Below are positions 1,766 to 10,051 of a DNA stretch of 10,051 nucleotides, in pieces (position 1 is the first letter of the stretch; each line of letters begins with the position of its first letter). A model generated the notes under the pieces. The model was not told where the DNA came from. It saw only the letters and a list, made by a program, of their open reading frames with translations, and searched no databases. This DNA comes from an uncultured Clostridium sp. (GTDB taxonomy: Bacteria > Bacillota > Clostridia > Lachnospirales > Lachnospiraceae). The position numbers and the translations under genes are program-made. Location of the stretch: NCBI GenBank assembly GCA_900541315.1, contig UQJF01000116.1, positions 1 through 10,051 on the forward strand. Reading direction: 5' to 3'.

Positions 1766-2209
1766 ATGAGGTTCCTGTGTGCAGAAGATAATGAGCTAAA
1801 TGCGGAGATCTTGACAGAGCTGTTAAAGATCGAGGGTGCAGAGTGTACGATCTGTGAAAACGGTAAAAAGCTTGTGGAGACCTTTGGACAGTCTGTGCCA
1901 GGGGAGTATGACATGATCCTGATGGATGTGCAGATGCCTGTTATGAATGGTTATGAGGCAACAAAGGCGATCCGCCAAAGTTCACATGAACTGGCAAAGA
2001 CGATTCCGGTCATTGCCATGACTGCCAATGCATTTTCAGAGGATATCCAACATTCTCTGGCAGCAGGCATGAATGCCCATATTTCAAAGCCAGTTGAGAT
2101 GGAGGTGCTGAAAAAGACTATAAAAAGCATAAAAATCAATGGGGGGGGGAAACAAATACTGATTAGTAAATTGTACCGACAGGATATGGAAATGAGGTTT
2201 TTAAGGTGA
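1766..2209 (+). CDS. Orphan receiver domain, remnant of a hybrid sensor kinase
   Basis: This is a single CheY-like receiver domain. It has the acidic pair in AEDNE, the phosphoacceptor Asp in ILMDVQMPVMNG, the switch Thr in AMTANAF and the Lys of SKPVE. All phosphorylation residues are present, so the fold could still be active. The same frame is open upstream to the stop at 1712-1714 and reads as an inter-domain linker (IEKDEPDGNILKGM), as found before the last receiver of hybrid kinases. No kinase domain precedes it; upstream lies the broken lipoprotein gene. ATG 1766 has no convincing ribosome binding site (only GAAAGG, one base away). The tail after the receiver contains a run of nine Gs (2141-2149) and an atypical extension to the TGA at 2207-2209, which overlaps the next gene's GTG by four bases. 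It is probably a pseudogene fragment. Expression as a free response regulator or phosphate sink cannot be excluded. Confidence 0.7.
   Translation: MRFLCAEDNELNAEILTELLKIEGAECTICENGKKLVETFGQSVPGEYDMILMDVQMPVMNGYEATKAIRQSSHELAKTIPVIAMTANAFSEDIQHSLAAGMNAHISKPVEMEVLKKTIKSIKINGGGKQILISKLYRQDMEMRFLR
2141..2149 (+). repeat. Homopolymeric G9 tract in the receiver remnant
   Basis: Nine consecutive Gs encode Gly-Gly-Gly near the end of the receiver reading frame. With eight Gs the frame would end GGGNKY at a TGA about 45 bases earlier; with seven it would end GGETNTD at a TAG. Only the present length modulo three carries translation to the overlap with the next gene's GTG. Confidence 0.75.
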
Positions 2210-3036
2210 AAAAAGGGAAAAAAGTTACGGCTGGATTGATATTTCTTATATTAATGACAGTATTAATGACAGCTCTCACAGGATGCAATAAGACAGATAA
2301 AATAACTGACACAACGAAAAATCCTGCTATAAAAATCGGAAGTGATAATTATCCTCCCTATAATTTTCTAAACGAGGATGGCATGCCGACGGGAATAGAT
2401 GTTGATCTAGCGACGGAAGCATTTGGAAGAATGGGATATAAGATAGAGATCATTCCCATCAGCTGGGAACAGAAAAAGAAACTGTTAGAAAATGGAGAAA
2501 TAGACTGTATTATGGGCTGTTTTTCCATGAAAGGACGACTGGATGATTATCAGTGGGCAGGTCCGTATATGATAAGCAGGCAGGTTGTTGCAGTCAATCC
2601 TGGCAGTGATATCTATAAATTAAGTGATCTGAAGGGAAAAAAACTTGCTGTCCAGTCAACAACAAAACCGGAAGAGATATTTCTGCATCGGACAGATGAA
2701 AGGATTCCTAAGCTGGGTAATCTGATCAGTCTGGAAAACAGGGAATTGATATATACTTTTTTAGGAAAAGGCTATGTTGATGCTCTGGGAGCCCATGAGG
2801 AATCTATTATCCAATATATGAAGGATTATAATATGGAACTGCGTATCCTGGATGAACCACTTATGACAGTGGGGCTCGGAGTTGCTTTTGCAAAGGATGA
2901 CACCAGAGGTATTTGCCAGAAATTAGAACAGACATTAGCTGACATGAAAGAAGATGGAACAGCCGCCAAAATCATCGGGAAGTATCTTGATGATCCGGAG
3001 AAATATCTGGAGGTAGATAAAATTGGAGAAGAATAA
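2206..3036 (+). CDS. Family 3 (amino-acid-type) solute-binding lipoprotein
   Basis: The 276-residue exported lipoprotein has a basic N-terminus, a hydrophobic core and LTGC, with the lipidated Cys at residue 27. The mature protein is a type-II periplasmic binding fold of the SBP_bac_3 family: IKIGSDNYPPYNF, GIDVDLATEAF in lobe 1, GRLDDYQWAGPY near the first hinge, LKGKKLAVQ opening lobe 2, and GYVDALGAHEESI. Arg111 sits where family members bind the ligand carboxylate. The lobe-2 Asp that usually binds the alpha-amino group appears replaced, by His in my alignment, so the ligand may not be a standard amino acid. The GTG start overlaps the preceding TGA by four bases and has TGAGG eight bases upstream. 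No permease or ATPase follows; the next gene is a sensor kinase. The likely role is an extracellular co-receptor for that kinase, though docking to an unlinked transporter is possible. Confidence 0.88.
   Translation: MKKGKKVTAGLIFLILMTVLMTALTGCNKTDKITDTTKNPAIKIGSDNYPPYNFLNEDGMPTGIDVDLATEAFGRMGYKIEIIPISWEQKKKLLENGEIDCIMGCFSMKGRLDDYQWAGPYMISRQVVAVNPGSDIYKLSDLKGKKLAVQSTTKPEEIFLHRTDERIPKLGNLISLENRELIYTFLGKGYVDALGAHEESIIQYMKDYNMELRILDEPLMTVGLGVAFAKDDTRGICQKLEQTLADMKEDGTAAKIIGKYLDDPEKYLEVDKIGEE
3009..3014 (+). promoter_or_regulatory. Ribosome binding site fixing the TTG start at 3023
   Basis: GGAGGT ends eight bases before TTG 3023, near-ideal strength and spacing. No ATG nearby gives a comparable start, and the first transmembrane helix begins about 13 residues in. 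The site lies inside the 3' end of the binding-protein gene, so the two genes are coupled by a 14-base overlap. Confidence 0.75.
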
Positions 3037-5233
3037 ACAGGACTGGATAAAAATAAAATTCTGGACTGTCAGTGCAGTCCTGGGTATGTGCCTGATCTGT
3101 TTTACAGTTCTGTATTTTTTCTATTTTAGTAAAGCCCGTGAGGAATCCCGGCTTTTGAATATAGTAAATTATGTGAAGGTACAATGTTCTGTGTATACAC
3201 GTTATAATGAGGTATCAGAATGTAAATGCCTGATACGTGCGATTGACAGTGCAAGACAGGTTAGTGTTGTCATAGATGCAAAAACACAGGACGGAAAAGA
3301 ATTTAACAATCAGCTTTTAGAAGAATGTACAGACCAGTTATGGCTGACAGGTGCTATAGTACTGGATGCAAATGGAAACACGGTAGGTGAATATAGTGAG
3401 AGCGGGAGTAGGGATAGAAGCCGTTTTGCAAAAATACAGGAACATGTTAATAAAGAAACCATACTGGATATTGCAGACCATGAGGAAAAGGTGTATTCCC
3501 AGCAGATCAGCTGTGATGATGGAGGGCATATAGATGTAGCTGCCTGTGCCAGGAGAGATGAACCTGGTATTGTAATTACTTATTATTACACATCTGCTGA
3601 GTTTTTACAAAATTATAAGCTGACCATACAGAGCCTGTTAAATGGATATCAGACCTTTAGTGACGGAACGATCATGATCGTGGATAATGGTGTGGTCATT
3701 GCTTCCAACGATACCAGCCTTATCGGTCAGGATGCGAAAAAACAGGAGGTGATCCAGGCTTTAAAGAAAAATGCAGACAGCAGACATTTAATGCATTTAA
3801 ATGTGGCTGACGATTCCTATTATGGACTGATGATGAAACAAAGGGATTATTACATTTATGCATATATTCCGGAGCGTACCGTATTTCATACGTTGCCCCA
3901 AAATGTGATAATGGTCATGTTTATTTATATGGTGGTGGTGACACTGGTATGGCTGCTTCTTAAAAAATCCAGGGAGAACAGCATTAAAATAGAAAAGGAA
4001 AGAGAACAGGAGTATCAGAGAAAACTTCTGGAAGCAGCTGAAAAGGCAGAGGCGGCCAATCGGGCGAAGACAGAATTTCTCCAGAGGATGAGTCATGATA
4101 TCCGTACACCGATTAATGGGATCTGCGGAATGGTCGATGTGGGGGATCATTACAGCAATGATCTGCAGAAACAGGCAGATTGCAGGAAAAAGATCCGTGA
4201 AGCCTCAAATATTCTTTTAGAGCTGATCAATGAAGTCCTTGATATGAGCAAGCTGGAATCAGGGGAAATTTTGCTGGAAGAAAAGCCTTTTGATGTTTAT
4301 AAGACAATAAATGATGTAATGGACTTGGTTAGCAGACAGGCAGATGAAAGGGGAATAAAGGTTGAACAGACAATAGAGATTAAGAACCGGAAATTACTGG
4401 GAAGCTCCCTTTATCTGAAACGTATGCTAATGAATATCCTGAGTAATGCTGTGAAATACAATAAGGATTATGGAAACATAGATCTAAGCTGCAAAGAAAT
4501 CCCGTCACACAGTACAGAAAGTACAATGCTGGAATTTACATGCCGGGATACAGGTATTGGCATGAGCAGCGGATTTAAAGAGCATGTTTTTGAATCCTTT
4601 GCCAGGGAGCAAAAGGGCGGAGCTTCTAAATTTGGGGGAACAGGTTTAGGGATGACCATCACCAAGAACCTGGCAGAAAAAATGGGCGGAACGATCACCT
4701 TTGAAAGCGAGAGGGACAAAGGTACGACCTTTGTGCTCCGGATCCCATTTAAAATAGACCTGGATGCGGATAAACATAAAGAACAGAAGAATGTATCGGA
4801 AAGATCCATAAAGGATCTGAATATCCTTCTGGTAGAAGATAATGAGCTGAATATGGAAATTGCTGAATTTTTGCTCCAGAATGAGGGCGCCCAGGTGACG
4901 AAAGCATGGAATGGACAGGAAGCGGTTGAGATATTCGAAAAAAGCAGACCTGGTGGATTTGATGTCATCCTTATGGATATTATGATGCCGGTCATGAATG
5001 GCTATGAAGCAGCAAAGATAATCAGGTCTCTGGACAGGAAAGATGCAAAGGTGGTCCCCATCATTGCAATGACAGCAAATGCCTTTACCGAGGATAAGCT
5101 GAAAGCAAAAGAAGCAGGGATGGATGAACATATTGCAAAACCGGTTGATGTGAAATTACTGGTAAAAGTGATCAGCGGATTAGTGGAAAATAGTTTTGGG
5201 GGGATCCGTAATGAAAAAGAAAAAATGGAATAG
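3023..5233 (+). CDS. Hybrid sensor histidine kinase with one receiver
   Basis: The 736-residue membrane kinase presumably detects an extracellular signal and autophosphorylates on His. Order: TM1 (residues 13-35); an extracellular Cache-like domain (about 36-292) with the typical late segment GTIMIVDNGVVIAS; TM2 (about 295-313); a charged helical linker (314-345); and HisKA with His358 in MSHDIRTP. The ATPase domain follows with the N-box NILSNAVKYN, G1 CRDTGIGM and G2 GGTGLGM. A C-terminal receiver (about 598-720) has VEDNE, phosphoacceptor Asp652 in LMDIMMPVMNG, AMTANAF and AKPVD. All catalytic motifs look intact. There is no PAS, HPt or DNA-binding domain, so onward transfer must use a separate protein. 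Its partner is probably the family 3 lipoprotein just upstream, by position and overlap. It starts at TTG and its 3' end overlaps the next lipoprotein gene by 23 bases. Confidence 0.92.
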   Translation: MEKNKQDWIKIKFWTVSAVLGMCLICFTVLYFFYFSKAREESRLLNIVNYVKVQCSVYTRYNEVSECKCLIRAIDSARQVSVVIDAKTQDGKEFNNQLLEECTDQLWLTGAIVLDANGNTVGEYSESGSRDRSRFAKIQEHVNKETILDIADHEEKVYSQQISCDDGGHIDVAACARRDEPGIVITYYYTSAEFLQNYKLTIQSLLNGYQTFSDGTIMIVDNGVVIASNDTSLIGQDAKKQEVIQALKKNADSRHLMHLNVADDSYYGLMMKQRDYYIYAYIPERTVFHTLPQNVIMVMFIYMVVVTLVWLLLKKSRENSIKIEKEREQEYQRKLLEAAEKAEAANRAKTEFLQRMSHDIRTPINGICGMVDVGDHYSNDLQKQADCRKKIREASNILLELINEVLDMSKLESGEILLEEKPFDVYKTINDVMDLVSRQADERGIKVEQTIEIKNRKLLGSSLYLKRMLMNILSNAVKYNKDYGNIDLSCKEIPSHSTESTMLEFTCRDTGIGMSSGFKEHVFESFAREQKGGASKFGGTGLGMTITKNLAEKMGGTITFESERDKGTTFVLRIPFKIDLDADKHKEQKNVSERSIKDLNILLVEDNELNMEIAEFLLQNEGAQVTKAWNGQEAVEIFEKSRPGGFDVILMDIMMPVMNGYEAAKIIRSLDRKDAKVVPIIAMTANAFTEDKLKAKEAGMDEHIAKPVDVKLLVKVISGLVENSFGGIRNEKEKME

Positions 5234-7061
5234 ATTGTTTTCTGTACTTTTTGTGATGGTGACAGTTATATCACTTCTGTCAGGCTGTGGCAGAAAGCGT
5301 GCAGAAAAAGAAGATGCAGAAACGATCACAGTATATTTGTGGACCACGCAGCTGTATGAAAAATATGCACCATACATCCAGAAACAGCTTCCTGATATTA
5401 ATATTGAATTTGTGGTAGGTAATAATGACCTGGATTTCTACCGGTTCCTGAAGGAAAACGGTGGATTGCCGGATGTTATAACCTGCTGCCGTTTTTCACT
5501 CCATGATGCAAGCCCATTTAAAGACAGCCTGATGGATCTTTCCACAACCAATGAGGCAGGTGCTGTCTATAATACATACATTAACAGTTTTACGAACCGG
5601 GATGGCAGCGTAAACTGGCTTCCTGTGTGTGCAGATGCCCATGGCTTTGTAGTGAACAGGGATCTTTTTGAAAAGTATGATATTCCTCTGCCAACGGATT
5701 ACGAAAGCTTTATTTCTGCATGCAAGAAATTTAAAAAAGCAGGTATCCGTGGTTTTGCGGCAGACTATTATTATGATTATACATGTATGGAAACGCTGCA
5801 GGGACTGTCTGCATCAGAGCTTTCTTCTGCAGCCGGACGCAAATGGCGTACCATCTACAGTGATCCGGAAAATACAAAGAGAGAAGGCCTGGACAGTACA
5901 GTCTGGCCGGAGGTCTTTGAACGTATGGAGCAATTCATAAAGGATACAGGATTGAGCCGGGACGATTTGGATATGAATTATGATGATGTGACTGAATTGT
6001 ACAAAAACGGTAAGGTTGCCATGTATTTTGGCAGTTCTTTCGGTGTAAAAATATTTCAGGACCAGGGGATCAACACAACATTTCTGCCATTTTTTCAAGA
6101 GAACGGCGAAAAGTGGCTGATGACTACACCCTATTTCCAGGTGGCATTAAACCGTGATCTGACACAGGATGAAACGCGCCGGCAGAAGGCAATGAAGGTG
6201 CTGAATACAATGCTTTCAGAGGAGGCACAGAACCAGATCGTTTATGAGGGCCAGGATATATTAAGCTACAGTCAGGATGTGGATATCCATCTTACAGAAT
6301 ATCTGAAGAATGTAAAGCCTGTGATCGAAGAAAACCATATGTATATCCGTATTGCGTCAAATGACTTTTTCGCCATTTCCAAGGACGTGGTTTCAAAAAT
6401 GATCTCAGGGGAATACGATGCAGAGCAGGCTTATCAGTCATTTAATACCCAGCTTCTTGAGGAAAGCACCACTTCTGAGAATATCGTGCTGGAGCCACAG
6501 AAAACTTATTCTAATATTTTTCATACCGATGGGGGGAATGAAGCGTATTCTGTTATGGCAAACACTTTGCGGGGTATTTATGGCACAGATGTGCTGATCG
6601 CATCAGGAAACAGCTTTACAGGAAATGTACTTAAGGCAAAGTACAGTGAAAAAATGGCAGGCAGAATGATCATGCCAAATGGTCTTTGGGCTTACAAGTG
6701 TACGATGAGCGGGTCTGAACTGAAGGAGACAGTCAGAAACTTTGTAGAAGGCTATGAGGGAGGTTTCATTCCCTTTAACAGGGGCTCTCTGCCTGTAGTA
6801 AGCGGCATTTCTGTGAAGGTCAGGGAAAATGACGATGGCTATACGCTGGATAAAGTTACAAAGAATGGAAAAGTAGTTGGGGACAATGACAGGTTTACTG
6901 TAACCTGTCTGGCAATACCGCGACACATGGAAGCTGATCCTGCAGGTAAAAATATTGTATTTGACAGTGAAGATATTTCTGTGAAAGATACCTGGACAGG
7001 ACATATTTCGGAGGGTAATGTTATTCTTGCAGAGCCTGAAGACTACATTACTCTGAGGTGA
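5211..7061 (+). CDS. Binding lipoprotein fused to a 5'-nucleotidase C-terminal-like domain
   Basis: This is a 616-residue exported lipoprotein. The signal peptide starts MKKKKW and ends LLSGC, with the lipidated Cys at residue 26. Residues about 40-400 form a family 1 (sugar-type) solute-binding domain: ITVYLWTTQLYEKYAPYIQ, GLPDVITC, GFVVNRDLFEKYDIPLPTDYESF and MYFGSSFGVKIF. Residues about 440-600 match the 5'-nucleotidase C-terminal domain pattern: NEAYSVMANTLRGIYGTDVLIASG, then WAYKCTMSGSELKETV, then VSGISVKVRENDDG and a GKVVGDNDRFTV segment. The N-terminal metallophosphatase that carries nucleotidase catalysis is absent, so hydrolysis is not expected. The UshA aromatic pair that stacks the base is not obviously kept. 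ATG 5211 is preferred over TTG 5196: it has a G-rich ribosome binding site (5198-5204) and leaves a normal signal peptide. It sits between two hybrid kinases and is probably the co-receptor for the downstream one. Expect binding of a sugar or nucleoside-like ligand, not identified. Confidence 0.85.
   Translation: MKKKKWNRLFSVLFVMVTVISLLSGCGRKRAEKEDAETITVYLWTTQLYEKYAPYIQKQLPDINIEFVVGNNDLDFYRFLKENGGLPDVITCCRFSLHDASPFKDSLMDLSTTNEAGAVYNTYINSFTNRDGSVNWLPVCADAHGFVVNRDLFEKYDIPLPTDYESFISACKKFKKAGIRGFAADYYYDYTCMETLQGLSASELSSAAGRKWRTIYSDPENTKREGLDSTVWPEVFERMEQFIKDTGLSRDDLDMNYDDVTELYKNGKVAMYFGSSFGVKIFQDQGINTTFLPFFQENGEKWLMTTPYFQVALNRDLTQDETRRQKAMKVLNTMLSEEAQNQIVYEGQDILSYSQDVDIHLTEYLKNVKPVIEENHMYIRIASNDFFAISKDVVSKMISGEYDAEQAYQSFNTQLLEESTTSENIVLEPQKTYSNIFHTDGGNEAYSVMANTLRGIYGTDVLIASGNSFTGNVLKAKYSEKMAGRMIMPNGLWAYKCTMSGSELKETVRNFVEGYEGGFIPFNRGSLPVVSGISVKVRENDDGYTLDKVTKNGKVVGDNDRFTVTCLAIPRHMEADPAGKNIVFDSEDISVKDTWTGHISEGNVILAEPEDYITLR
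7055..7058 (+). promoter_or_regulatory. Ribosome binding site favouring ATG 7067
   Basis: GAGG ends eight bases before ATG 7067, within a GAGGTGAG stretch that also contains the preceding gene's TGA (7059-7061). A GTG at 7058 is in frame but lies within this site and lacks its own, so ATG 7067 is the better start. The GTG would add three residues. Confidence 0.6.
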
Positions 7062-7066
7062 GAAGA

Positions 7067-10006
7067 ATGAATATTGGAAATCGTAATACAGGCAGAGAGA
7101 ACTTTTTCATAAGAAAACGATTAAGGATAGCTGTCCTTATTGTTTTCTTCATGGGGATCGTTTTGACTGTTTTCCGGTATTTTGAGTTTGTGTCGAAAAC
7201 GGTTTATGAGGAAAGTGTTTCTCATTTGACTGAGGTTTTTCGTCAGTCAAATAATGTGTTAAATGAACTGACAAATAAGAATCTGACCTATCTTCATATG
7301 TGGGGGGAGTATCTGCAGAAGACTTCTGATGAAAGCGAGATCCGTGATTATATAGATAAAGCCCAGGAAGAAGCCGGTTTTTTATATTTTTATTTTCTGT
7401 CAGCTGACGGCAACTATAAGATGTTAACAGGTGAAACCGGCTATCTTGGATTGCAGGAAGATCTTGAAGATAAGATAGCACAGGGGGAGGATATCATAAC
7501 AAATGCAGTAGTTCCCGGAAAACCACAGATGCTTGTATTTGCCAGCCCCCAGTATCATGGAAGCTATCAGGGATTTGAATATGACGCAATTGCCATTGCA
7601 TATGAAAACGCTGATATAGTAGATGTACTGGATATCTCTGCTTTTAATGGAAATGCCAAGAGTTATGTGGTTCATCCAGATGGCCGTGTTGTCATCGATC
7701 ATTCCTTTGAGGCATGGGGAACCGTGTATAATTTCTTTGGTGTTTTAAGAGAGCATTCCAATATGTCCGAAGAAAAGATCCTTGAACTTTCAGGGAAATT
7801 TAAAGAGGGACGTACAGATGCGATGCTGGTGAACCTGGATGGAAGTAACTACTATCTGATTTATGGAAGATCGAAATATCAGGACTGGATATTTCTGGGA
7901 CTTGTCCAGGCTGATATAGTCAATGCCAGCATGAATTCTCTGCAGCTTCGGACTATGCTCCTTGGAGGGGCCATAGTGTTCGGTATTGCTGTTTTTATTA
8001 TTGAACTGATCCTCCAAAAGAACAGGATAAGCCTGAAAAGAAGGGATATTGAGATCCTCTATAGGGATGAGCTGTTTCAAAAGCTGTCAATGAATGTAGA
8101 TGACGTTTTTCTGATGCTGGATGCAAAAACATATAAGGCAGATTATGTAAGTCCCAATGTGGAAAAACTGCTGGGTATTACAGTAGAACAGATCCAGAAG
8201 GATATTGGTGTTTTGGGAAAACTGCATTTTGAAGATCCAAAGAAGAATTATCTGAAAGAGATCCAGGTAAATGAGCAGCAGGAATGGGATTTTGAATATG
8301 TTCACCAGAAAACAGGGGAACAACGCTGGTTTCATATTATTGCAATGGGCAGTGAGGTAAACGGAAAAAAGAAATATATCCTGGTTATGTCTGACCGTAC
8401 CGTTGATAAGAAAATGAACCAGGCCCTTTATGAGGCAGTCCGCGCTGCGGAAACTGCCAACCGGGCAAAGAGCACATTCCTTTCCAACATGTCCCATGAT
8501 ATCCGCACGCCAATGAATGCTGTTATCGGTTTTACTACACTGGCTGTAAGCAACATTGACAATAAGGAAAAAGTCAGGGATTATCTAGGAAAGATCCTTT
8601 CATCCAGCAACCATCTGCTTTCACTGATCAATGATGTACTGGATATGAGCCGTATAGAGAGCGGGAAGATACATCTGGAAGAAACAGAGGTCAGTCTGTC
8701 TGATATGCTCCATGATCTGAAGACGATCATCAGTGGACATATCTATGCGAAGCAGCTGGAGCTTTATATGGATGCCATGGATATTACAGATGAGGATGTT
8801 TATTGTGATAAAACGAGACTGAACCAGGTGCTGTTAAATCTTTTGTCTAATGCGATCAAGTTTACTCCTGCAGGGGGAACCGTTTCTGTCCGGCTGAAGC
8901 AGTTTCCTGGGGCGAAAAAGGGCAGTGGGCTGTACGAGATCCGGGTAAAGGATAGCGGGATCGGTATGAGCCAGGAATTTGTACAGAAGATATTTTCTCC
9001 TTTTGAACGGGAGCGGACATCAACGGTTAGCAGGACTCAGGGCACCGGGCTTGGTATGGCCATTACCAAGAATATTGTTGATATGATGGGGGGAACCATT
9101 GAGGTTCGGACAGAGCAGGGCAAAGGAACTGAATTTATAGTCCGTCTTCCATTGCGGATCCAGTCAGAGCAGCGCAGTATAGAGAAGATCGCAGAGCTGG
9201 AAGACCTTAAGGCATTGGTTGTAGACGATGATTTTAATACCTGTGACAGTGTGACAAAGATGCTTGTAAAGGTTGGAATGCGTTCAGAATGGACGCTTTC
9301 AGGTAAGGAAGCCGTTCTTCGTGCACGCCAGTCCATGGAACTGGGGGATGCATTCCATGCTTATATCATCGACTGGCGTCTGCCGGATATGAATGGTATT
9401 GAAGTCACCCGGCAGATACGCAGTATGGGTGATGATACGCCAATCATTATCCTGACTGCTTATGACTGGTCAGACATTGAAGTAGAAGCCAGAGCAGCAG
9501 GAGTAAATGCATTTTGCGCAAAACCGCTGTTTATGTCAGATATCAGAGAGACACTGATGGCTGCTATCGGTCAGAAGCAGACCGGGGCAGAGGACCGTAT
9601 CCTTCCGGAAGCAGGTCCTGATTTCAGAGGTAGATGTATATTGCTTGTGGAAGACAATGAGTTAAACCGTGAAATTGCTGAGGAGCTTCTTAAACAATAT
9701 GGATTCCTGGTTGATATAGCGGAAAATGGAGCAGAGGCAGTGGAGAAAGTGAAGAATTCAGCACCAGGCACTTATGATCTGGTGCTTATGGATATTCAGA
9801 TGCCTGTAATGAACGGATATGAGGCCACGGAGCAGATCCGGGCACTGGAGGATCCGGCACTGGCGCAGATCCGGATCCTTGCAATGACTGCCAATGCTTT
9901 TGATGAAGACAGAAAGCAAGCACTGAAATGTGGTATGGATGGATTTTTGTCCAAGCCGATCGTAATGGAAGAATTGATCCGTACATTACAAAATAATATG
10001 ATGTAA
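7067..10006 (+). CDS. Hybrid sensor histidine kinase: Cache, PAS and two receivers
   Basis: The 979-residue membrane kinase has, in order: TM1 (about 19-37); an extracellular dCache-like domain (about 40-290) with SYVVHPDGRVVIDH and NYYLIYGRSKYQDWIFLG segments; TM2 (about 297-317); and a cytoplasmic PAS domain (about 326-443; DVFLMLDA, YVSPNVEKLLGI). HisKA follows with His477 in MSHDIRTPMNAVIGF, then the ATPase domain with NLLSNAIKFT, KDSGIGM and GTGLGM. Receiver 1 (about 715-835) is divergent, with VVDDD, Asp769 in IIDWRLPDMNG and AKPL. Receiver 2 (about 857-979) is canonical, with VEDNE, Asp909 in LMDIQMPVMNG, AMTANAF and SKPI. Both receivers keep the phosphorylation set. There is no HPt or DNA-binding output. 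The gene starts five bases after the fusion lipoprotein stop, so that lipoprotein is the obvious partner. The PAS domain adds a possible internal input that the other kinase lacks. Confidence 0.93.
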   Translation: MNIGNRNTGRENFFIRKRLRIAVLIVFFMGIVLTVFRYFEFVSKTVYEESVSHLTEVFRQSNNVLNELTNKNLTYLHMWGEYLQKTSDESEIRDYIDKAQEEAGFLYFYFLSADGNYKMLTGETGYLGLQEDLEDKIAQGEDIITNAVVPGKPQMLVFASPQYHGSYQGFEYDAIAIAYENADIVDVLDISAFNGNAKSYVVHPDGRVVIDHSFEAWGTVYNFFGVLREHSNMSEEKILELSGKFKEGRTDAMLVNLDGSNYYLIYGRSKYQDWIFLGLVQADIVNASMNSLQLRTMLLGGAIVFGIAVFIIELILQKNRISLKRRDIEILYRDELFQKLSMNVDDVFLMLDAKTYKADYVSPNVEKLLGITVEQIQKDIGVLGKLHFEDPKKNYLKEIQVNEQQEWDFEYVHQKTGEQRWFHIIAMGSEVNGKKKYILVMSDRTVDKKMNQALYEAVRAAETANRAKSTFLSNMSHDIRTPMNAVIGFTTLAVSNIDNKEKVRDYLGKILSSSNHLLSLINDVLDMSRIESGKIHLEETEVSLSDMLHDLKTIISGHIYAKQLELYMDAMDITDEDVYCDKTRLNQVLLNLLSNAIKFTPAGGTVSVRLKQFPGAKKGSGLYEIRVKDSGIGMSQEFVQKIFSPFERERTSTVSRTQGTGLGMAITKNIVDMMGGTIEVRTEQGKGTEFIVRLPLRIQSEQRSIEKIAELEDLKALVVDDDFNTCDSVTKMLVKVGMRSEWTLSGKEAVLRARQSMELGDAFHAYIIDWRLPDMNGIEVTRQIRSMGDDTPIIILTAYDWSDIEVEARAAGVNAFCAKPLFMSDIRETLMAAIGQKQTGAEDRILPEAGPDFRGRCILLVEDNELNREIAEELLKQYGFLVDIAENGAEAVEKVKNSAPGTYDLVLMDIQMPVMNGYEATEQIRALEDPALAQIRILAMTANAFDEDRKQALKCGMDGFLSKPIVMEELIRTLQNNMM

Positions 10007-10021
10007 GTGTCAAAAGTATAA

Positions 10022-10051
10022 ATTGCGTTTGTGCTCGCACAAATAAGCAAT
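10022..10051 (+). terminator. Hairpin after the last kinase, possible terminator cut by window edge
   Basis: ATTGC (10022-10026) pairs with GCAAT (10047-10051). Inside it TTTGTG (10028-10033) pairs with CACAAA (10038-10043) around a CTCG loop, with a small asymmetric bulge between the arms. It begins 15 bases after the TAA at 10004-10006, a typical place for a terminator. The window ends at the stem base, so the required T-tract cannot be seen. It could instead be the edge of a longer repeat. Confidence 0.4.

Follow-up and report, generated by a model that had tools for sequence, protein, structure and literature searches.

Hybrid kinases without an output and binding proteins without a transporter are loose ends of gut Firmicute genomes. 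What do the two do when they are encoded side by side? We addressed this question in a stretch of 10,051 bases from an uncultured Clostridium sp. of the Lachnospiraceae (contig UQJF01000116.1, hereafter the window), in which two solute-binding lipoproteins (SBPs) are each followed by a hybrid histidine kinase. Our analysis suggests that such pairs probably constitute a sensory array that converges on cyclic di-GMP (c-di-GMP), and is often gated by it, rather than a transport system. Both kinds of loose end would then fit one testable scheme of array receptors, a narrow histidine phosphotransfer (HPt) bottleneck, a shared c-di-GMP output, and a riboswitch leading back to the array. The window itself is the receptor half only: the promoter is retained, and a riboswitch, an HPt or an output gene was not seen in it.

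All genes discussed lie on the plus strand, in the order transposase end, promoter-like leader, broken SBP/kinase pair, and two intact pairs. The first intact pair (2206–5233) consists of SBP3 (2206–3036), a family-3 solute-binding lipoprotein of 276 residues (PF00497, 91 bits; lipobox LTGC), and HHK1 (3023–5233), a hybrid kinase with a putative extracellular sensor followed by HisKA, HATPase, and one receiver (REC) domain. The second (5211–10006) consists of SBP1-NucC (5211–7061; PF01547/PF13416; lipobox LSGC), a sugar-type solute-binding lipoprotein of 616 residues that ends in a 5'-nucleotidase C-terminal-type domain, and HHK2 (7058–10006), with a Cache-like sensor, PAS, HisKA, HATPase, and two REC domains. 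Kinase domains were assigned with Pfam, and lipoboxes were found by motif. Inspected by eye, the translations show apparently intact kinase catalytic blocks, with the H-box MSHDIRTP in both kinases and the receiver Asp in all three receivers. An initial annotation of the window had described two tandem pairs with lipoproteins from the unlike families 3 and 1, and overlaps of 14 bases (3023–3036) and 23 bases (5211–5233); the open reading frames (ORFs) and Pfam matches bear this out. Its 5-base gap after SBP1-NucC holds if HHK2 starts at ATG 7067 and turns into a 4-base overlap if the start is GTG 7058. The SBP1-NucC frame opens upstream at TTG 5196, and 5211 was taken as the gene start. The annotation also saw no permease, ATPase, HPt, or output regulator, and none was found among the seven window frames scanned by Pfam (the other ORFs, mostly antisense, were unscanned save for the transposase piece); HPt and HD-GYP genes do occur elsewhere in related genomes, as described below.

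Is the pairing conserved? A contig scan with SBP1-NucC yielded 12 loci (L-numbers denote surveyed loci and G-numbers genomes), 11 at 79–83% identity and one from a metagenome-assembled genome (MAG) at 53%. The 11 close loci come from Blautia, Coprococcus catus, Eubacterium ramulus, Hominisplanchenecus, Fusicatenibacter (two loci), Clostridium fessum, Anaerobutyricum, and Hominifimenecus records; five of the six species whose taxonomy was checked are Lachnospiraceae, and Clostridium fessum (L008) stands under Clostridiaceae according to NCBI. SBP3, HHK1, SBP1, and HHK2 are contiguous in eight of the close loci (L001, L003, L004, L006, L008, L009, L010, and L012). Among the exceptions, a REC-HD-GYP gene interrupts the order in L002, the pairs have changed places behind a REC-HD-GYP gene in L005, and L007 holds the second pair only. 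SBP1 stays with HHK2 in 11/11 close loci, and in all 10 of these that have HHK1, SBP3 stays with it. As a separate observation, two large ORFs of L007 (4457–9182), one of them recombinase-like (site-specific, by eye), immediately precede its SBP1-HHK2 pair, which is led by a riboswitch.

Pairing also extends beyond close relatives. A relative (E≤1e-40) is present in 22 of 397 genomes of the family of G001, at identities down to 28%, and a profile of the C-terminal domain matched 15 of 392 genomes of the order at E≤1e-6, nine of them strongly. A kinase gene directly follows 29 of 40 SBP1 genes (gap −39 to 58), counting once the genes that share an identical 100-residue stretch and leaving aside the MAG locus L011, where ORF picking had chosen other frames. 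Free SBP3 genes overlap a kinase gene in 11 of 12 cases; the exception, L155, adjoins a permease and an ATP-binding cassette (ABC) ATPase by eye. Seen from the kinase side, 24 of 47 hybrid-kinase ORFs in G002, G003, G004, and G007 have an SBP, which is a fused SBP3 in nine and lies directly upstream in 15 (10 after SBP1-NucC, five after SBP3); these counts cover the families represented by the hidden Markov models (HMMs) used, to which other SBP families are invisible. The fusions may serve as a 'Rosetta stone' that marks SBP3 as a kinase input. The linkage of pairs, whose loss in relatives the initial annotation had named as fatal to its reading, is strongly retained.

The two partners also appear to change together. 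Across 30 pairs, SBP similarity tracked sensor similarity given the kinase core (partial rank correlation 0.53, reached in 0/2000 permutations); this co-variation, a test that the initial annotation had proposed, supports pairing in a suggestive rather than clean manner. L056 offers a natural exchange, in which the kinase core is near HHK2 (bit fraction 0.84) and the sensor (0.04) and SBP (0.31) are not. In the window itself, SBP3 shares 69–72% identity with its orthologues in 10 loci, the HHK1 sensor 45–49%, and the HHK1 core 65–68%, against 90–94%, 78–87%, and 77–85%, respectively, for other loci compared with L003. The corresponding values for SBP1-NucC, HHK2 sensor, and HHK2 core are 80–84%, 70–75%, and 86–89% for the window, and 84–92%, 75–85%, and 88–93% for other loci. 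Because all parts of the first pair are more distant from relatives while the second pair is nearly as close as in other loci, the SBP3-HHK1 pair of the window has diverged, or been replaced, as a unit. The initial annotation derived the array from duplication and divergence, which is plausible; any such duplication must be old, however, since the pairs have different SBP families and HHK1- and HHK2-type cores are only about one third identical in relatives. Tandem SBP1 lipoproteins were seen before one kinase in L046 (4550–8333) and L049 (6363–10079), and at a contig end in L054 (1567–5258), which suggests two ligands per kinase in some species.

What might the lipoproteins bind? SBP3 aligns with glutamine-type SBPs. 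The Asp in the VTDNA motif of AncQR is replaced by AHEES in SBP3 and its 10 orthologues (AHDTS in L164), so that the orthologues carry His at a position held by Asp in AncQR and in the glutamine-binding structure 6h30. The Arg of the ligand site is retained. Because the Asp is lost while the Arg is kept, the ligand head group recognized by SBP3 has probably changed. In SBP1-NucC, residues 425–616 (6483–7058) form the putative NucC domain, whose identity rests on sequence profiles: PF02872 was matched at E≤0.1 by 19/19 related C-terminal domains (best 6.8e-12), the window copy scores 16.4 bits against a cut-off of 23.6, copies in L006 (24.4) and L009 (26.4) pass, and the C-domain profile matched nucleotidase 3ivd at E 0.0051. 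SBP1-NucC resembles PF02872 enzymes (UshA, 3ivd) in its C-terminal domain and differs from them in its N-terminal half, which is SBP_bac_1/8 by Pfam and fold; a metallophosphoesterase catalytic half was not found in SBP1-NucC. An AlphaFold model reached a mean confidence (predicted local distance difference test, pLDDT) of 80.7, compared with 34 from a shallow alignment, and the structure-search matches listed for it fall on the SBP half. In public data, 7984 candidate relatives were scored, all at E≤0.001. An SBP with a 5'-nucleotidase-C-type domain can be named as a putative receptor class with thousands of public relatives.

Could the lipoproteins be parts of importers? Permease and ATPase genes in the same operon were, according to the initial annotation, what would overturn its reading. 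HMMs built from 50 permeases of these genomes, covering PF00528-type permeases only, gave one match in 32 surveyed loci (L056, near a contig end and ~4 kb beyond the kinase); as a control, they found four permeases, MalF/MalG-type by eye, in two of 14 control loci (L120 and L124). A transporter operon was rejected on the near-absence of importer genes beside the pairs in relatives. A cognate permease and ATPase in the operon were not found among the window frames scanned, and such genes could lie elsewhere in the genome. The lipoproteins might then be orphan transport proteins that feed distant importers, next to kinases that sense independently. ABC permeases are indeed plentiful (18–64 PF00528 matches per genome in 10 genomes). 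In the CuaD-CuaS-CuaR system of Ruminiclostridium cellulolyticum, the CuaABC importer relies on an ATPase encoded elsewhere (PMC10384115), and products of neighboring SBP and kinase genes need not interact (PMC11113362). Orphan transport nevertheless accords poorly with a pair order retained down to 28% SBP identity, with the nine SBP3-fused kinases out of 47, with the scarcity of permeases nearby, and with the His for Asp exchange in SBP3 orthologues, and we regard it as quite unlikely. The lipoproteins look like dedicated co-receptors, not transporter parts, and the Cua system provides a precedent, as its SBP is reported to bind the kinase (PMC10384115).

A second alternative is that the Cache-like domains of the kinases sense ligands such as autoinducer-2 (AI-2) or amino acids directly, with the lipoproteins as mere modulators. 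The sensor regions gave weak matches below cut-off, to dCache_1 in HHK2 (21 bits) and to Cache_WalK in HHK1 (19 bits). Histidine kinases with dCache_1 have been proposed as AI-2 receptors in rumen bacteria (PMC9540692), and CuaS may respond weakly without CuaD (PMC10384115). Against direct sensing, R-x-W, which is needed for the five-residue AI-2 signature, is absent from both sensor regions, and each SBP type keeps its own kinase in every close locus that has both. We therefore give direct sensing little credence and retain the lipoproteins as the probable sensors of ligand. Two known receptor types were likewise rejected. The signature of the CahR-type AI-2 receptor (R126-x-W128, Y144-x-D146, and D173 in dCache_1; PMC9540692) lacks its R-x-W here, by motif scan and not by alignment to PctA. 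The LuxP type was set aside because the lipoproteins of the window are PF00497 and PF01547/PF13416 proteins and not members of PF13407, the LsrB/LuxP family (PMC9540692).

Next, where might the phosphate go? We surveyed 10 related genomes, selected for carrying the block or its second pair. A search with the HHK1 core (E≤1e-45) returned 97 hybrid-kinase matches, 4–13 per genome and a few of them partial. By contrast with these numbers, HPt proteins gave 14 matches, one to three per genome (one barely above cut-off, one with an internal stop); they are present in 10/10 genomes, with H-x-x-K-G in 12/12 read. Each genome also encodes one protein of ~650–725 residues that resembles REC-HD-GYP at 51–57%; the two scanned by Pfam are GGDEF-REC-HD-GYP proteins, and the GGDEF, RxxD, HHERxDGxGYP, and HDIGK motifs are intact in 10/10 read. 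An HPt with the conserved His and a receiver-bearing output, as expected of a hybrid-kinase phosphorelay, were thus found in relatives only. L115 has two SBP3-fused kinases, an HPt, and a REC-HD-GYP in a row, and L059 has SBP1-NucC, a kinase, an SBP3-fused kinase, and an HPt. The best single argument for the putative wiring is L300, where a single strand carries the promoter (17020–17054), a riboswitch (16907–16982), HPt, REC-HD-GYP, SBP1-NucC, HHK2, and an SBP3-fused kinase.

The receivers might instead act through other response regulators, in which case the riboswitch linkage would reflect c-di-GMP control of receptor expression only. Other response regulators are present in the surveyed stretches, and the HPt gene adjoins the GGDEF-REC-HD-GYP gene in only five of the 10 genomes (G002, G005, G006, G008, and G009). 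Set against this are the L300 run, which unites HPt, REC-HD-GYP, SBP1-NucC, and HHK2, the grouping in L115, and the REC-HD-GYP genes that adjoin SBP1 in L002 and L005. We consider a non-c-di-GMP output unlikely, though worth keeping in view, and favor an output through HD-GYP enzymes.

The arrays are also linked to c-di-GMP on the side of expression. The 10 related genomes contain 41 c-di-GMP-I riboswitches (RF01051; one, G009:C90, under cut-off), and 14 control genomes contain none. We took as next gene the nearest same-strand ORF of at least 90 residues, found at most 654 bases away. It belongs to the SBP or hybrid-kinase genes for 24 of the 41 and is another gene for 16, and one riboswitch is followed by a contig edge; three of those 16 enter an array through one other gene (L005, L212, and L214). 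A further 16 genomes, chosen for SBP1 or C-domain relatives, gave 27 riboswitches in 10 genomes; an SBP or kinase gene is next in 10 cases, and L283/L300 reaches the array additionally via HPt. Eight loci with hybrid kinases mostly without SBPs (one, L158, has an SBP3-fused kinase) showed no riboswitch. At cut-off, none was seen either in the arrays of close loci L006, L008, and L012 or in those of divergent loci L046–L052, L054, L056, L060, and L061. Three tandem c-di-GMP-I riboswitches with no SBP or kinase gene next were observed in L297 (28–288; G266).

The window's leader (643–731) is 71–77% identical by alignment to leaders of related arrays; compared with 15 leaders, it did not score above the best of 50 shuffles for L005, L006 (SBP3 leader), L008, and L012, and barely did so for L001. 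It contains an exact match to the promoter motif TTTTTCTTG-N20-TATAAT at 679–713 (one match, against none in 200 shuffles), with no riboswitch found between the promoter and the broken gene that comes first. In the alignment, the motif is missing from the leaders of L001, L001b, L152, and L005. In the 10 genomes the motif has 43 matches, 20 of a tighter form, and 18 of these 20 head SBP/kinase or kinase genes, a count made in the same genomes from which the motif was derived; the remaining two are G009:C146, where a riboswitch comes next, and G008:C29, which is followed by ORFs without SBP or kinase domains. Among the 16 further genomes there are five tight matches; four immediately precede an array riboswitch, and the fifth, in G294, precedes an ORF without SBP or kinase domains. 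The promoter stands without a riboswitch in the window, in the second array of L006 (15018), and before the kinase of L157. At G009:C146 (L211, 3779–3923), an array-type promoter and a c-di-GMP-I riboswitch precede a LytTR-like regulator, by eye.

These observations can be assembled into a model. Each lipoprotein would be tethered outside the membrane and bind a small nutrient: amino-acid-like for SBP3, and a sugar or oligosaccharide for SBP1-NucC, perhaps with a second site in NucC. Each would serve the sensor of the next kinase downstream as its co-receptor, and this kinase would then phosphorylate its own receiver domain or domains. From there, phosphate would move in trans to an HPt protein, of which each genome has few and which would presumably be encoded elsewhere in the window's host as well, and finally to the REC-HD-GYP or GGDEF-REC-HD-GYP enzymes that control c-di-GMP levels. 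In many relatives, c-di-GMP would feed back, with either sign, on array expression through the c-di-GMP-I riboswitch behind the shared promoter. More speculatively, in gut Lachnospiraceae and kin, with several pairs per genome, this may amount to a modular, self-referential network of interchangeable pairs, one promoter type, one to three HPt proteins, HD-GYP enzymes, riboswitch gating, and a dual-chemistry receptor for carbohydrate and nucleoside (the sugar-binding protein that ends in a non-catalytic 5'-nucleotidase-C-type domain); we offer this larger picture only tentatively. The initial annotation had reached the co-receptor idea. It did not notice that SBP1-NucC ends in a 5'-nucleotidase-C-type domain, that related genomes encode a putative HPt/HD-GYP output, that the arrays share a promoter, or that c-di-GMP riboswitches head related arrays.

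Several observations weigh against a sensory array converging on c-di-GMP. Its weakest links are the putative SBP-kinase contact and the putative phosphate route. For the former, the anatomy supports lipoprotein co-receptors, as the initial annotation had it, and binding of each to the adjacent kinase is a conjecture about which two Pseudomonas cases advise caution: adjacent SBP and kinase products failed to interact (PMC11113362). For the latter, the HPt partners of HHK1 and HHK2 are guessed from scarcity and co-location. No kinase stands directly next to 11 of the 40 SBP1 genes: three are followed by a second SBP1, two by a contig or region edge, and six by neither. The next item in these six is another ORF in four and lies more than 200 bases away in two; the next ORF in L006 and L061 is a split or cut kinase N-terminus by eye, the stretch ends soon after the gene in L045, L048 is a 166-residue fragment, L033 has no apparent explanation, and the 19 kb of L052 contain no kinase. 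Conversely, 23 of the 47 hybrid kinases lack both SBP1 and SBP3 (four follow a hybrid kinase, four another ORF, and 15 neither). SBP similarity also correlated with the kinase core given the sensor (0.43, 0/2000 permutations, the same 30 pairs), so that shared ancestry explains part of the SBP-sensor correlation. ABC ATPase-like ORFs occur in L044, L047, and L050, and L049 and L052 each carry a cut one at a stretch end. Directly upstream of SBP1 in L044 come the ATPase and a membrane ORF, with a c-di-GMP-I riboswitch between them and SBP1; by eye, the two resemble a metal importer. As to the riboswitches, another gene comes next for 17 of the 27 in the further genomes (seven in G123; one is L283/L300), and five of the 10 positives there were already known from earlier locus scans. 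Finally, the window gave no RF01051 match even to E 10, and no HPt or output gene in the frames scanned.

Sensing by an SBP together with a kinase is, as a principle, already known. The Cua system, also clostridial, resembles the pairs in that the SBP gene adjoins that of a sensor kinase and the SBP is separate from the transport SBP; it differs in having a cognate response regulator and a cuaABC importer operon alongside, and the available part of its account mentions no hybrid kinase, HPt, c-di-GMP relay, or NucC domain (PMC10384115). Within the literature searched, the features that appear to be new are the importer-less multi-pair arrays, a putative receptor joining an SBP to NucC, a putative relay that narrows through HPt proteins toward HD-GYP enzymes, and a putative return path by way of riboswitches; no published description of such a combination was recognized among the titles and abstract beginnings searched, which did not cover preprints. 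In XylFII-LytS, also from Firmicutes, a sugar SBP serves a sensor kinase as its co-receptor, and the system controls a xylose importer via a YesN-type regulator, whereas the arrays here have hybrid kinases and no importer genes. LuxP-LuxQ and TorT-TorS of Gram-negative bacteria couple a binding protein to a hybrid kinase with a phosphorelay; to our knowledge, neither occurs as riboswitch-led multi-pair arrays, and LuxP belongs to another SBP family than the lipoproteins of the window. In EvgS/BvgS-type kinases an SBP3 domain is fused as hybrid-kinase input; similar SBP3-fused kinases adjoin these arrays, and the SBP3 of the window differs in being a separate lipoprotein. The scheme opens a way to find which ligands act on c-di-GMP in Blautia, Anaerobutyricum, Fusicatenibacter, and their kin.

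Upstream of the intact pairs lies the third, broken pair that the initial annotation had noticed. An SBP1-type lipoprotein is split into two pieces in different frames: the first (743–1162) is an ORF with no Pfam match and 44% identity to the L049 SBP1 over 69 residues, and the second (1110–1730) matches PF13416 (51 bits) and PF01547 (31 bits) and is 46% identical to the L046 SBP1. The pieces are nearest to SBP1 proteins of L046, L049, and L054. A lone receiver domain left by a lost hybrid kinase follows (1766–2209; PF00072, 88 bits), 85% identical to the receivers of kinases that come after SBP1 genes in L006 and L009; SBP3 starts four bases inside the end of this frame. Compared as DNA, the receiver stretch shares 86% identity with the gene for a 771-residue kinase located after a 592-residue SBP1 in G001 (L203), and the broken SBP stretch is 70–72% identical to SBP1 genes of L203 and L216. 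Because both the SBP pieces and the receiver match such pairs, the relic is most simply read as the remnant of one SBP1/kinase pair after a deletion.

Two further features lie at the window's edges. The left neighbor, not part of the system, is the C-terminal piece of an insertion-sequence transposase (92–418; DDE_Tnp_1_4, PF13701, 114.6 bits), and window bases 1–114 are 78% identical to L044 17501–17615. At the other end, a weak, end-truncated match to the Clostridiales-1 small RNA (9999–10051; 25 bits, cut-off 48) runs off the window just past HHK2.

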